A DNA stretch of 17,094 nucleotides from the NCBI GenBank assembly GCA_017510305.1, contig JAFWNO010000025.1:1-17094 (forward strand), read 5' to 3'. Within the stretch, counting starts at the first letter, position 1. The number at the start of each line of letters is the position of its first letter. A model generated the notes under the pieces. That model saw nothing but the letters and a program-made list of their open reading frames with translations, was not told the DNA's origin and searched no databases. Positions 5,401-16,586 of this stretch are shown in pieces. This DNA comes from Candidatus Saccharimonadota bacterium. GTDB lineage: Bacteria; Patescibacteriota; Saccharimonadia; Saccharimonadales; Saccharimonadaceae. Position numbers and translations under genes: made by a program.

Positions 5401-6176
5401 TAATGGGGCTATACCTCTCCGCACACCCGCTAGATAAATATGACACCTTCTTTGAAGACCAGACTCACCCTTACGATCTCGTCAAAGCCGAAAACGACGA
5501 AAAAACTATCACTATCGGCGGCATTATTACCAATGTCCGCACGATTCTCACCAAGTCTAATACTAAAATGGCTTTTGTTAAGATTGAAAATAAGTCCGCC
5601 GAGCAGGAAATTATCATCTTTCCGAACACTTTTGAAGAATATGGTGCTAAACTCGTCCAAGATAATGTCATTAAATGCACTGGCCGTATTTCCGCCACCG
5701 ATAAAGATGGCCGCCCCACCCCTGATATCAAGGTATTAGCCGAAAGTATCGAGGTAATCACCGACGAAGTCCTAGAAAATTATCAGTCTACCGGCACCAA
5801 ATTGCCACCTCTTCAGGCCGCGCCCAAAAAGCGTTATTCTAAGAAATCTCGCACCTCTGCCGAGCGCGTATCTTCCGCTACGTCGTCCAGTAATCCTAGC
5901 CCGGTTGAAGAAGTGCCCCGCGTGCCAATTAATCCTCCAGAGGATAATCGCAAAAAACGTCTCTATTGCCTTATCAAAGACCCAAATAATGCCGAGGTCT
6001 TATCGGATATCAAACATCTCTGTGACCAAAACCCAGGCTTCCAAGAAATCATCCTCGTCCTAGAGAATAAAGACAGTAAGACGCCTCTACGCATGCCCTT
6101 TAAAGTGGACGCTTCAGAGGAGTTAATAAAGCCCCTCTCAGACCTCCTCGGCGAGGCTTGCGTAAAAGTCAAATAA
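2451..6176 (+). CDS. dnaE: DNA polymerase III alpha subunit
   Basis: Replicative DNA polymerase, 1241 residues, usual size for DnaE. The N-terminal PHP domain (about 13-290) keeps a full set of metal-ligand candidates: H17, H19, D26, H51, E76, H97, C147, D221 and H223. That matches PHP domains which proofread in other bacteria, so built-in 3'-5' exonuclease activity is likely (inference). The polymerase core carries PDIDTD with D435 and D437, and KMDFLGL with D591, the expected catalytic aspartates. FNKSHAACYALIAYWTAYLKAHYP is the expected finger/HhH-region signature, cited here by its ends FNKSHA and LKAHYP. An OB fold lies around 1020-1100 (TIGGIITNV), followed by a low-complexity linker rich in Ser, Pro and Lys, and a small C-terminal domain. 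It is convergent with the WG-repeat gene at 6209. It appears leaderless, transcribed from an extended -10 promoter. Confidence 0.97.
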   Translation: MSDQGNNLKPSDFVHLHNHTHYSLLDGLTKVPELISYVKDNGMEAVAVTDHGTMSGLVELYKEAKAKDIHPILGLEAYVAARHRTDRDPAHDKIRYHITLLAMNDKGFENLCRLISEAEITGTYYKPRIDHEIMEKWNEGIICLSGCASSEISCALKDGDMARARELVDWYSKTYKDRFYLEMQDHGHPDSPTHWDVQKKINEGLQKISKETGLPLVVTCDGHYIKHEDQDTHEVLLCIGTASNLSDPNRMSLKDFQLHVIPPEDIIKRWGKDFPEAIRNTKKIAERCQVELQLGRILIPKFPVPEGEDEKSYLDKLVFRGLVFRYTDKTEEEASKIETVEECRKLLEKANRKDAIERIDYELSVVDKMGYNGYFLIVQDFINWGKKQGIIYGPGRGSAAGSILAYALRITELDPLKYDLLFERFLNPDRISMPDIDTDIQDTRRDEVIEYCTQKYGKDRVTNICTFGKMMGKMAVRDVARVLEVPYAESDRIAKLVPDPQMGHHVPLAKAIKESPDLKQEYETNPTAKEVIDFAIRLEGTVRSHGVHACGVVIAPDDLVKFLPLEVSQKGPIATQFPSTQVEELGLLKMDFLGLSNLSVINNALRMIKKVYKDDVDLYSLPLDDEETYKLLQRAETTGVFQLESDGMKRYLKDLKANSFDDIIAMVALYRPGPMQFIDSFIRRKHGKEKITYLHPGLENSLKSTYGIMIYQEQFMQISREWCGFTGGQADTLRKAVGKKKVDLMNKVKPEFIEGAIKIGGATEEIAETFWSQLLEFANYCFNKSHAACYALIAYWTAYLKAHYPDAFMAALMTSDMRWTDRLAIEMAECKRMGLKVLGPDINESYGDFGIVPGKKTIRFGLSGIKSVGKALVESIVLPERDENGPFKSVCDFAKRVNSTKFNKRSWEAAIKTGAFDQMGDRSDLLYNLEAIQAYGAKIQKDKADGQTDLFAMMGSAGEVPEPKLVPAPAKYSEKEQLLWERDLMGLYLSAHPLDKYDTFFEDQTHPYDLVKAENDEKTITIGGIITNVRTILTKSNTKMAFVKIENKSAEQEIIIFPNTFEEYGAKLVQDNVIKCTGRISATDKDGRPTPDIKVLAESIEVITDEVLENYQSTGTKLPPLQAAPKKRYSKKSRTSAERVSSATSSSNPSPVEEVPRVPINPPEDNRKKRLYCLIKDPNNAEVLSDIKHLCDQNPGFQEIILVLENKDSKTPLRMPFKVDASEELIKPLSDLLGEACVKVK

Positions 6177-6201
6177 AAATCGCCCAAGTAAAACTTGAGC
6201 G
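6174..6201 (-). terminator. Intrinsic terminator of WG-repeat gene 1
   Basis: On the minus strand CGCTCAAG-TTTTA-CTTGGGCG is followed by ATTTTTATTT. The T run reaches the dnaE stop codon. The same stem recurs at 7045-7067 and 10594-10616. Confidence 0.8.
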
Positions 6202-6208
6202 GTAAGAA

Positions 6209-7038: not shown

Positions 7039-7067
7039 AAAAATCCGCCCAAGTAAAACTTGAGCGG
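7039..7067 (-). terminator. Intrinsic terminator of WG-repeat gene 2
   Basis: On the minus strand CCGCTCAAG-TTTTA-CTTGGGCGG is followed by ATTTTT. The stem is nine pairs including one G-T wobble, and lies eight bases after the TAG stop. Confidence 0.85.
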
Positions 7068-10587: not shown

Positions 10588-10593
10588 TACATT

Positions 10594-10622
10594 CCGCTCA
10601 AGGTATACTTGGGCGGTTTTTT
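10594..10622 (+). terminator. Intrinsic terminator of WG gene 4
   Basis: CCGCTCAAG (10594-10602), loop GTATA, CTTGGGCGG (10608-10616), then six T. It is the third copy of the stem shared by WG genes 1 and 2, and runs straight into the leuS promoter. Confidence 0.92.
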
Positions 10623-10656: not shown

Positions 10657-13296
10657 ATGGATCGCTATAATCCGGCAGAAATAGAGAAAAAATGGCAAAA
10701 AATCTGGGAAGAGACTGAGGCTTTCAAAGCTCCATCCCTTGATGAGATTGACAAAAAGCAAGCCAAGATGTATCTTGCAGAGATGTTCCCTTATCCATCT
10801 GGTGCCGGCCTCCACGTCGGCCACGTCCGCAATTTCACCATCGTTGATGTTTTAACTCGCTTCTACACTCAGCAAGAAATGAACGTCCTTCGGCCCTTTG
10901 GCTATGATACTTTCGGGCTCCCTGCCGAAAATTACGCCATCAAGACCGGCACCGCTCCCCAAGAGGTAACCAAGGAAAATATTGCTAATTTCCGCCGCCA
11001 GGCCAAAAAGCTCGGCTTTGCCATTGATTGGTTACGCGAGATTAACACTTCCAACCCAGAATATTACAAGTGGACTCAATGGTGTTTCCTCCAGCTTTAT
11101 AAAAAAGGCCTCGCCTATCGTAAAGAGAGCTACCAGTGGTGGTGTCCAGTAGACCAGACAGTCCTTGCGAACGAGCAAGTAGAAAACGGCCGCTGTTGGC
11201 GCTGTGGCGCAGAGGTCGAAAAGAAGAAAATGAAGCAATGGTTCTTCAAGATTACCGCCTATGCCGATGAATTATTAGATGAGATTGATGCCCTAGACTG
11301 GCCCGACAAAATCAAGACCATGCAAAAGAATTGGATCGGCCGCAGCGAGGGCGCAGAAATAGACTTTACACTAGCAGATGCAGCTGAGTTGAGCGCGCAA
11401 GCGCGATGCGAAACCGAGGCTCCGCGGGCTGTGGGTGTGGGGAGCCCGCACCCGTCGGAGCCCCGGCTTGAGCGTGAAGCGGCATCTGCTAGCGCGAAGT
11501 CTATTCGTGTCTTTACTACGCGTCCAGATACTATCTTCGGTGCCACCTTCCTAGTCCTCGCCCCCGAGCACCCGCTCGTCGACAAGCTCGTCACAGACAA
11601 GACTCGCGAAAAAGTCAATCAATACCAGACCGAGACTTTGAAAAAGTCTGAAATCGAGCGCCAAGAAAACAAGGAAAAGACAGGTGTCTTTACTGGCTCC
11701 TACGCTATTAATCCTGCCACCGGCGAGAAAATTCCTATCTGGCTCTCTGACTATGTCCTGATGGGTTACGGTGAGGGCGCCATTATGGCGGTGCCAGCTC
11801 ACGACGAGCGCGACTTTGACTTTGCCGAGAAATTTGATTTGCCAATTGTTACCGTCATAGATAAGCCGGAAAATTCCGAAGATGATGGCCGTTGCTATCA
11901 TGGTGAGGGCGAGCTAGTCAATTCCGGCCAGTTTAACGGCGTCCGCACCGAGGATGCTCGCGAGCAAATTGTCACTTGGCTAGAGCAGCAAGGAGTAGGG
12001 AAGAGTAAAGTCACCTACCGTATGCGCGACTGGCTCATTTCTCGCCAGCGTTATTGGGGCTGCCCGATTCCTATCGCCTACGATAAAAATGGTGAGCCTC
12101 ACGCTATTCCAGAGGACAAGCTTCCAGTTATCTTGCCAGAGGTGACAGATTATCAGCCAGATAAATCCGGCCGCTCGGCCTTGGCTAAGGCCAAAGATTG
12201 GCTCAAGGTAGAAATCGATGGCAAGGAAATGACTCGCGAGACAGATACCTTGGATGGCTATGCTTGCTCCTCTTGGTATCTCTGGCGCTATGTTTCTCCG
12301 CACGACGACAAGGCCGCTTGGGATAAAGATGCGATTAAATATTGGGCGCCTACAGATGTCTATGTCGGCGCAGACCACGCTGTCGCACACCTTCTCTATA
12401 TCCGTTTCTGGTGTAAATTCTTTGCTGATGAAGGTCTGTTGCCTTTCCGCGAGCCAGTCAAGAAATTGCTTTATAATGGCTACATCAATGCTCCTGATGG
12501 CAAAAAGATGAGCAAATCCAAGGGTAATGTGATTGATCCGCTTGATGTGATAGACAGTGGCTACGGTGCCGACACTCTCCGTACCTACGAAATGTTTATC
12601 GGCCCATACAACGAGGACGCTTCTTGGGACACCAAAGCCATCGGCGGCGTCTATCGCTTCCTCAACCGCTGCTGGAACCTCGCGTTTAGTAAGGAGAAAA
12701 GGGGAGCGGATGACAATTCTGAATCTTCAGCTGAATTGAGCGCGAAGCAGCGATGCGAAACCGAGGCTCCGCGGGCTGTGGGTGTGGGGAGCCCGCACCC
12801 GTCGGAGCCCCGGCTTGAGCGTGAAGCGGAAGATTCAAAATTGTCAGACGCAAACATTGTAATACGCAACAAAACGATTAAGAAGGTAACGGAGGACCTC
12901 CACCGAGTCTCCTTTAACACCGCCGTTGCCGCCCTAATGGAGTATGTAAACGAGCTCTACAAAAACGGCACCACTGCCGAAGACAATATTGTCTTGGCAA
13001 AGTTACTCAAACCTTTTGCCCCACACCTCGCCTGTGAAATCCTGGAAAAATATGGCGTCGGCGACATCTGGCCAGTCTGGGATGAGTCTGCCCTTGTCGA
13101 AGATACGGTAGAAGTAGTTGTTCAAGTCAATGGCAAACTTCGCGCTAAGATCCAAGTCTCCACCGAAGATTTAGCCAACGAAGAAAAATTGACCGAGCTA
13201 GCCCTCAAAGAGGAAAATGTCGCTCGACGTATCTCTGGCGCGCCAAAGAAAGTCATCATCCCTAAAAACGCCAAACTCATCAATATCGTCGCATAA
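10657..13296 (+). CDS. leuS: Leucyl-tRNA synthetase with two in-frame palindromic insertions
   Basis: Class I synthetase that charges tRNA-Leu, 879 residues. Seen: the HIGH-type motif HVGH at 53-56, a Cys-rich zinc-type insert near 160-190 (WWCPVDQ...CWRCGAEV), the start of the CP1 editing domain with TTRPDT, editing motif AVPAHDERDFDF, ACSSWYLWRY, KMSKS at 617-621, and a C-terminal anticodon-binding region. Two near-identical segments, about 243-276 and 692-724 (core RCETEAPRAVGVGSPHPSE), are not part of the family. The first sits just before the editing domain and the second in a loop of the anticodon-binding region. Both keep the frame, so the enzyme is probably functional with two disordered loops. 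The start at 10657 is set by GGAG and homology; the ATG at 10646 is out of frame. Confidence 0.96.
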   Translation: MDRYNPAEIEKKWQKIWEETEAFKAPSLDEIDKKQAKMYLAEMFPYPSGAGLHVGHVRNFTIVDVLTRFYTQQEMNVLRPFGYDTFGLPAENYAIKTGTAPQEVTKENIANFRRQAKKLGFAIDWLREINTSNPEYYKWTQWCFLQLYKKGLAYRKESYQWWCPVDQTVLANEQVENGRCWRCGAEVEKKKMKQWFFKITAYADELLDEIDALDWPDKIKTMQKNWIGRSEGAEIDFTLADAAELSAQARCETEAPRAVGVGSPHPSEPRLEREAASASAKSIRVFTTRPDTIFGATFLVLAPEHPLVDKLVTDKTREKVNQYQTETLKKSEIERQENKEKTGVFTGSYAINPATGEKIPIWLSDYVLMGYGEGAIMAVPAHDERDFDFAEKFDLPIVTVIDKPENSEDDGRCYHGEGELVNSGQFNGVRTEDAREQIVTWLEQQGVGKSKVTYRMRDWLISRQRYWGCPIPIAYDKNGEPHAIPEDKLPVILPEVTDYQPDKSGRSALAKAKDWLKVEIDGKEMTRETDTLDGYACSSWYLWRYVSPHDDKAAWDKDAIKYWAPTDVYVGADHAVAHLLYIRFWCKFFADEGLLPFREPVKKLLYNGYINAPDGKKMSKSKGNVIDPLDVIDSGYGADTLRTYEMFIGPYNEDASWDTKAIGGVYRFLNRCWNLAFSKEKRGADDNSESSAELSAKQRCETEAPRAVGVGSPHPSEPRLEREAEDSKLSDANIVIRNKTIKKVTEDLHRVSFNTAVAALMEYVNELYKNGTTAEDNIVLAKLLKPFAPHLACEILEKYGVGDIWPVWDESALVEDTVEVVVQVNGKLRAKIQVSTEDLANEEKLTELALKEENVARRISGAPKKVIIPKNAKLINIVA
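11358..11505 (+). repeat. Palindromic coding element in leuS, copy 1
   Basis: Outer inverted arms: AATAGACTT (11358-11366) with AAGTCTATT (11497-11505), and CTAGCAGATGC (11371-11381) with GCATCTGCTAG (11482-11492). The G+C-rich core holds CCGAGGCTCCG (11414-11424) pairing 10 of 11 with CGGAGCCCCGG (11456-11466), and CGGGCT (11425-11430) with AGCCCG (11443-11448). An 80-nt run, 11403-11482, is identical to copy 2. It is read in frame as about 33 extra residues. Confidence 0.9.
12711..12846 (+). repeat. Palindromic coding element in leuS, copy 2
   Basis: It has the same core as copy 1 (12750-12829 identical to 11403-11482) and the same reading frame. The outer arms are different in sequence from those of copy 1 but again inverted: TGACAATT and GAATCTTC (12711-12728) pair with GAAGATTC and AATTGTCA (12829-12846), with two mismatches over about 22 bases. 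TTGAGCGCGAAGC (12736-12748) recurs as TTGAGCGTGAAGC (12815-12827), a near-direct repeat flanking the hairpin. Confidence 0.9.
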
Positions 13297-16469: not shown

Positions 16470-16586
16470 AAGAAGAGGTAATATTTCAAATGAGAACTAA
16501 AATTCGTCTGGGGGGGGGGGGTATAAAAGCTATTTAACTATCTTTCGCGGAACTGCTATTTTGCTTTCCGCATTTTTGTTGTCTTA
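16470..16586 (+). repeat. Direct repeat, copy 2: leader and signal-peptide region of surface genes
   Basis: Matches 1-114 except for a few bases just before the ATG and two extra G in the tract. Both copies point the same way and enclose about 16.4 kb of mostly housekeeping genes. Confidence 0.95.

Follow-up and report, generated by a model that had tools for sequence, protein, structure and literature searches.

A dispersed palindromic element lies in frame within leuS and other genes of Saccharibacteria and carries outer arms that appear to derive from the target

The window, that is the whole stretch of 17,094 nt analysed here, carries a leuS gene whose frame encodes a leucyl-tRNA synthetase (LeuRS) of 879 aa and stays open across two copies of a strongly folding sequence. 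Pfam recognizes the LeuRS editing, class I and anticodon-binding domains in the product. The gene and the parts of the two copies are located as follows:

10657..13296, + strand: leuS host gene, 879 aa, open across both copies (ORF list and Pfam)
11358..11381, + strand: copy 1, left outer arm, native leuS sequence (GAEIDF...; protein alignment and arm comparison)
11382..11480, + strand: copy 1, body of 99 nt (covariance model)
11393..11404, + strand: copy 1, small side hairpin (fold)
11425..11454, + strand: copy 1, conserved hairpin tip (copy alignment)
11482..11505, + strand: copy 1, right outer arm, mostly an inverted copy of the left arm (arm comparison and fold count)
12706..12728, + strand: copy 2, left outer arm, favoured as the native side by the fold count
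12729..12827, + strand: copy 2, body of 99 nt (covariance model)
12772..12801, + strand: copy 2, conserved hairpin tip (copy alignment)
12829..12851, + strand: copy 2, right outer arm (arm comparison)

The direct repeat in leuS amounts to 102 nt (11381-11482 and 12728-12829), with 95-97% identity in two comparisons. A preliminary description had stated that 80 nt of it (11403-11482 and 12750-12829) are identical, that both copies share frame and orientation, that the core forms a strong hairpin and that the antisense strand is open as well. All of this is reproduced: the 80-nt segments are 100% identical, both copies lie in the one leuS frame, - strand ORFs at 11259-11618 and 12651-12920 span them, and both fold beyond chance, copy 1 with -84.3 kcal/mol (z -6.41, 0 of 200 shuffles as good) and copy 2 with -81.2 kcal/mol (z -6.80, again 0 shuffles as good). 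Beyond what that description covers, the hairpins run on past the common 102 nt into arms of 23-24 nt that differ between the copies, 11358-11381 pairing with 11482-11505 in copy 1 and 12706-12728 with 12829-12851 in copy 2, so that the addition is larger than the common core. The segments had been described as absent from the leuS family, and in relatives both sites indeed have a loop that is short or holds another insert. The best PDB match is 1h3n, whose residue 236 aligns with residue 239 of LeuRS and whose residue 242 aligns with residue 282; the solved enzyme thus has a short turn at site 1. The match to the anticodon-binding domain, at residues 738-837, lies beyond site 2. The insert is read in frame, with a hydrophilic loop as its predicted product. 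The assembly to which the leuS contig belongs (457 kb in 60 contigs, 58% complete) holds these two copies only, and the 17,094-nt window yields 0 matches to Rfam families over their gathering score.

Elsewhere in the window, poly-G tracts of 10 (40-49) and 12 (16510-16521) nucleotides lie near the starts of two similar surface-protein-like genes; the former reads through in frame, and the latter is followed by a stop after 15 codons. These two genes are a candidate phase-variable pair.

The body of the element is branched: its stem is variable, its tip almost invariant, and a small side hairpin branches off on the 5' side. Across nine copies, 93.3% of the pair cells in the stems are standard and 14 of 30 pairs are changed on both sides. 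Stem cells changed on both sides number 37, as against 10.4 in shuffles, and only three are changed on one side; pair types in the stems of these nine copies are no more numerous than in shuffles (21 versus 21.4). Outside the body, each of the ten copies tested has a second, outer stem of its own: the two arms of one copy score 17-25 against each other over 18 to 44 alignment columns, and 90 cross pairs have a mean of 6.3 and a maximum of 11. Terminal inverted repeats common to the copies were not found among the ten compared in the window's genus.

The preliminary description had proposed to look for the core elsewhere, and had named recurrence of the core together with relatives lacking the segments as what would distinguish a mobile element from a duplicated domain. 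Both are found. A covariance model built from nine copies detects 11 places in 6 of the 174 genomes of the genus, nine of which are the model's own sources. Seven of the 11 lie in genes, namely leuS (twice), lepA, uvrB, obg, a methyltransferase gene and a gene for a TrwB-like ATPase; these copies are in frame and occur in either orientation. Within the methyltransferase and TrwB-like ATPase genes the element is antisense and the frame is still open, which agrees with the earlier guess that insertion is tolerated in either direction. At three places (L063, L065 and L068) there is no gene on the element's strand, and the L068 copy is located in a terminator-like stem. The remaining place of this first family (L122 in G031) was not located by tip words and stands outside the counts of genes, contexts and arms. 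When the model was run on a draw of 392 genomes of the order it found six, including two from other genera within the family, G033 and G140 not being among the hits of this draw. An exact scan of genome contigs for part of the tip gave eight contigs, of which seven are Candidatus Saccharibacteria and six of these seven are titled sheep or goat intestine; the eighth belongs to a cyanobacterial MAG and seems to be a chance match within G+C-rich coding sequence. A phage, plasmid or viral origin was considered and rejected, the pattern having no match in viral contigs and the body none (blastn) in plasmid and phage records.

In related species the same loops of leuS, lepA and uvrB carry other, partly related palindromes. 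The loci compared are the best 30 of 99, 118 and 118 genomes and were chosen by their match to insert-bearing queries, so that they give no unbiased estimate of how often loops carry inserts; 13 of the 30 lepA loci and 2 of the 30 leuS site-2 loci fell outside anchor parsing. Loops of at least 60 nt number 67 in total (11 at leuS site 1, 12 at leuS site 2, 14 in lepA and 30 in uvrB). With 60 shuffles for each, 49 of the 67 long inserts fold at z<-3 and 18 do not, as against 1 of 35 shorter loops at the same sites. All 67 are multiples of three and free of stops, partly by construction since they were read from open frames. Sequence is shared at a score of at least 30 by 143 of 1540 insert pairs from different genomes and different sites, by 81 of 647 pairs at the same site and by 6 of 24 pairs within a genome, the top score among 400 shuffles being 23; 45 of the 67 inserts link into one cluster. 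Thirty same-site pairs have their common sequence in opposite orientation, which could reflect repeated entry or inversion between the arms. Three leuS site-1 inserts of more than 600 nt (L040, L043 and L046) were set aside from the counts of fold, sharing, frame and polarity; the piece of the L040 insert that was tested is a NUDIX domain (PF00293, E 3e-13).

In the sister genus g47, none of 25 parsed loci (29 loci in all) has an insert at leuS site 1, all loops being short, and 1 of 26 parsed loci reaches 60 nt at site 2. The leuS frames of five g47 genomes (G400, G425, G437, G479 and G498) comprise about 940 aa, with 400-440 nt extra near query residues 411-417. Nesting is seen in uvrB, where L178 carries 69 nt within the tip of a hairpin that it has in common with L183. 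The element bodies in these two loops, which belong to two species, are identical over about 90 nt and the uvrB regions are about 78-79% identical, a situation that may stem from recent entry, transfer or conversion.

Where the native side can be judged, one arm appears to be the gene's own sequence and the other its inverted copy. For the methyltransferase, the insert-free ortholog L288 shows that the right gene flank is native and that the left arm is its inverted copy; comparison of the TrwB-like ATPase gene with L244 and L246 gives the same pattern. In leuS copy 1 and in lepA, protein alignment identifies the left flank as native. With respect to the element, the native arm lies on the 5' side in all four cases, obg being left out of this judgement as its orthologs did not decide the native side. 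Among the 49 hot-spot inserts with z<-3, a fold count is both tip-oriented and decidable for 14, the other 35 being undecided or lacking an orientation mark. The native arm is 5' in all three decidable members of family 1, two of which are among the four judged sites, and in a second tip family 9 of 11 fall on one side, L058 and L142 being opposite; this polarity rule was formulated after inspection, and some of the inserts counted are related to each other. In a pair of related species, uvrB of L175 exceeds that of L176 by 24 nt, of which 18 match the reverse complement of the opposite flank. A clean pair of empty and filled sites in near-identical DNA was not found for a family-1 copy. The genomes G057 and G155, tried as such a pair, have about 76% DNA identity over their aligned parts and few palindromes.

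The element is one of several palindrome families in the genus. A strict inverted-repeat scan of 324 kb of G033, about half of the genome, lists 19 long palindromes, Markov controls giving 0, 0 and 0; these include two or more additional interspersed cores whose arms are private. The scan undercounts palindromes, because the bulged leuS copies are absent from its list. The window's own genome contains another coding palindrome, in dnaX (L099, 2172-2346; G000:C7). In G468, a member of genus g78 of the same family, the same model finds eight full copies of 147-148 nt with the same conserved tip (L297-L303). These possess constant terminal repeats and, in six of the eight, 9-bp direct repeats, and in this resemble IS5/IS903-type MITEs. 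The conserved tip can thus ride on a conventional transposon.

Two kinds of non-coding repeat were also observed in the window. At 1843-2025 lies a 183-nt palindrome with 27-nt arms that are 96% complementary, which probably belongs to another element family. Short intergenic palindromic repeats at 6175-6202, 7040-7067 and 10589-10616, the third reversed and less alike, may be terminators or a small repeat family.

The explanation that we favour, with a probability of roughly 0.6, is a non-autonomous mobile palindrome with a body of about 100 nt, one of several families in the genus, that enters coding loops and non-coding sites. As a mechanism, a self-priming, flank-copying hairpin may be put forward, for which we hold the odds to be about even. 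The 5' end of the hairpin would join a 3' end in the target, the hairpin's own 3' end would prime itself on the stem, synthesis would run through the stem into the flank, and the product would rejoin the far side, which yields L-element-L'-R. Both the joining and the return are steps that we infer. In genes, only in-frame and stop-free products would survive, and the two leuS copies would be recent copies of each other. If copying is self-primed, one expects arms private to each copy, a conserved tip, changes that are double and not single-sided, and the polarity described above. A return step via microhomology was tested on the flanks and is not supported by them. Inverted repeats already present in the flanks, for which uvrB L070 at first was convincing, were likewise rejected as a targeting or return signal, since native flank pairs are only slightly above cross pairs. 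A bolder and more tentative version, which we would rather doubt than adopt, defines a class of mobile palindromes by the tip alone, the stem being remade from the host flank by fold-back synthesis without a dedicated transposase. If true, one process would account for entry, near-perfect arms and tolerance in genes.

Since the G468 MITE carries the same tip, a transposase is the main rival. On this view a DDE transposase encoded elsewhere would move the palindrome, a MITE whose arms are diverged terminal inverted repeats and whose direct target duplications have decayed. The eight full G468 copies with their constant terminal repeats and, in six, 9-bp direct repeats speak for this; in the window's genus, however, the outer arms of different copies are unlike each other, and those within genes hold host codons common to insert-free orthologs, and we regard the MITE reading as rather unlikely. 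The private arms could also be older than the insertion if the element enters hairpins already present in the target, such as terminators, and both the L068 copy in its terminator-like stem and uvrB L070, where both outermost flanks look native, fit this possibility. It is nevertheless improbable: the insert-free methyltransferase ortholog L288 has no such stem, only 1 of 35 short hot-spot loops reaches z<-3, and the complementarity of native flank pairs barely exceeds that of cross pairs.

Mobilization as a REP by a RAYT (Y1) transposase has its precedent in intragenic REPs, which include cases in uvrB and tRNA synthetases (PMC3733652). The element, by contrast, is about 100 nt long and three-way branched, and a search for the Y1 transposase (PF01797) in four genomes with the element, namely G000 (58% complete), G031, G032 and G033, gave no match, the bearers G109 and G140 standing outside this search; the REP reading is accordingly very improbable. 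Strong hairpins within essential genes could finally be skipped, like the mobile bypassing elements of yeast mitochondria, or be kept as an mRNA signal. Mobile bypassing elements are not translated and are hence free of limits on frame and stops, whereas each of the 67 long inserts has a length divisible by three and no stop, in part by construction, and nearly all protein matches listed are stop-free inside; skipping or an mRNA signal can hardly be expected here. Two identical copies within one gene might, lastly, suggest a duplicated lineage-specific LeuRS domain. This reading is ruled out for practical purposes: there are relatives that lack the segments, and the same DNA recurs at non-coding sites as well as in lepA, uvrB and obg. 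What the comparisons describe is a dispersed palindrome rather than a duplicated domain.

The mobile palindrome favoured here matters in two respects. Its arms record the target, so that the insertion reaction is readable from sequence, and the genus, which counts 174 species or more, shows different palindromes in the same LeuRS, LepA and UvrB loops. It thereby serves as a natural experiment on a large scale, from which one may learn how far loops tolerate inserts and how small genomes acquire new protein segments. Among the papers listed by a literature search, none reports palindromic or hairpin inserts in Saccharibacteria or Patescibacteria. How coding palindromes of the Rickettsia type move is, to our knowledge, still unknown.

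Among known systems, the G468 MITE is alike in its conserved tip and differs in its constant terminal repeats and in the 9-bp direct repeats of six of its eight copies. Nematomorph mitochondria have coding palindromes with locally templated arms, for which template switching was proposed; as far as is reported (PMC6649704), no common mobile core is evident there, whereas the saccharibacterial copies each have a conserved core. Intragenic REPs are palindromes lying in frame in several bacterial groups (PMC3733652); they are 20-40 bp long and end in a GTAG or CGTC tag, in contrast to a branched body of about 100 nt with an invariant tip and no RAYT in four genomes. The Rickettsia palindromic elements (RPEs) are palindromes of 100-150 nt in several families that lie in frame in genes as well as in non-coding DNA and encode a loop (PMC10969869), and they are said to lose their repeat identity over time (PMC6649704). 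The comparison with RPEs made in the preliminary description is fair as a description of behaviour, the element being a palindrome of about 100-150 nt that is dispersed and lies in frame in unrelated genes as well as in non-coding DNA. The likeness described is one of behaviour; Saccharibacteria belong to another phylum, their element has target-templated outer arms, and the same loops have been entered many times across species. Coding palindromes as such are thus already known from Rickettsia and from intragenic REPs; what is new is their occurrence in this phylum and on this scale, the repeated use of the same loops, and target-templated arms round a common mobile core.
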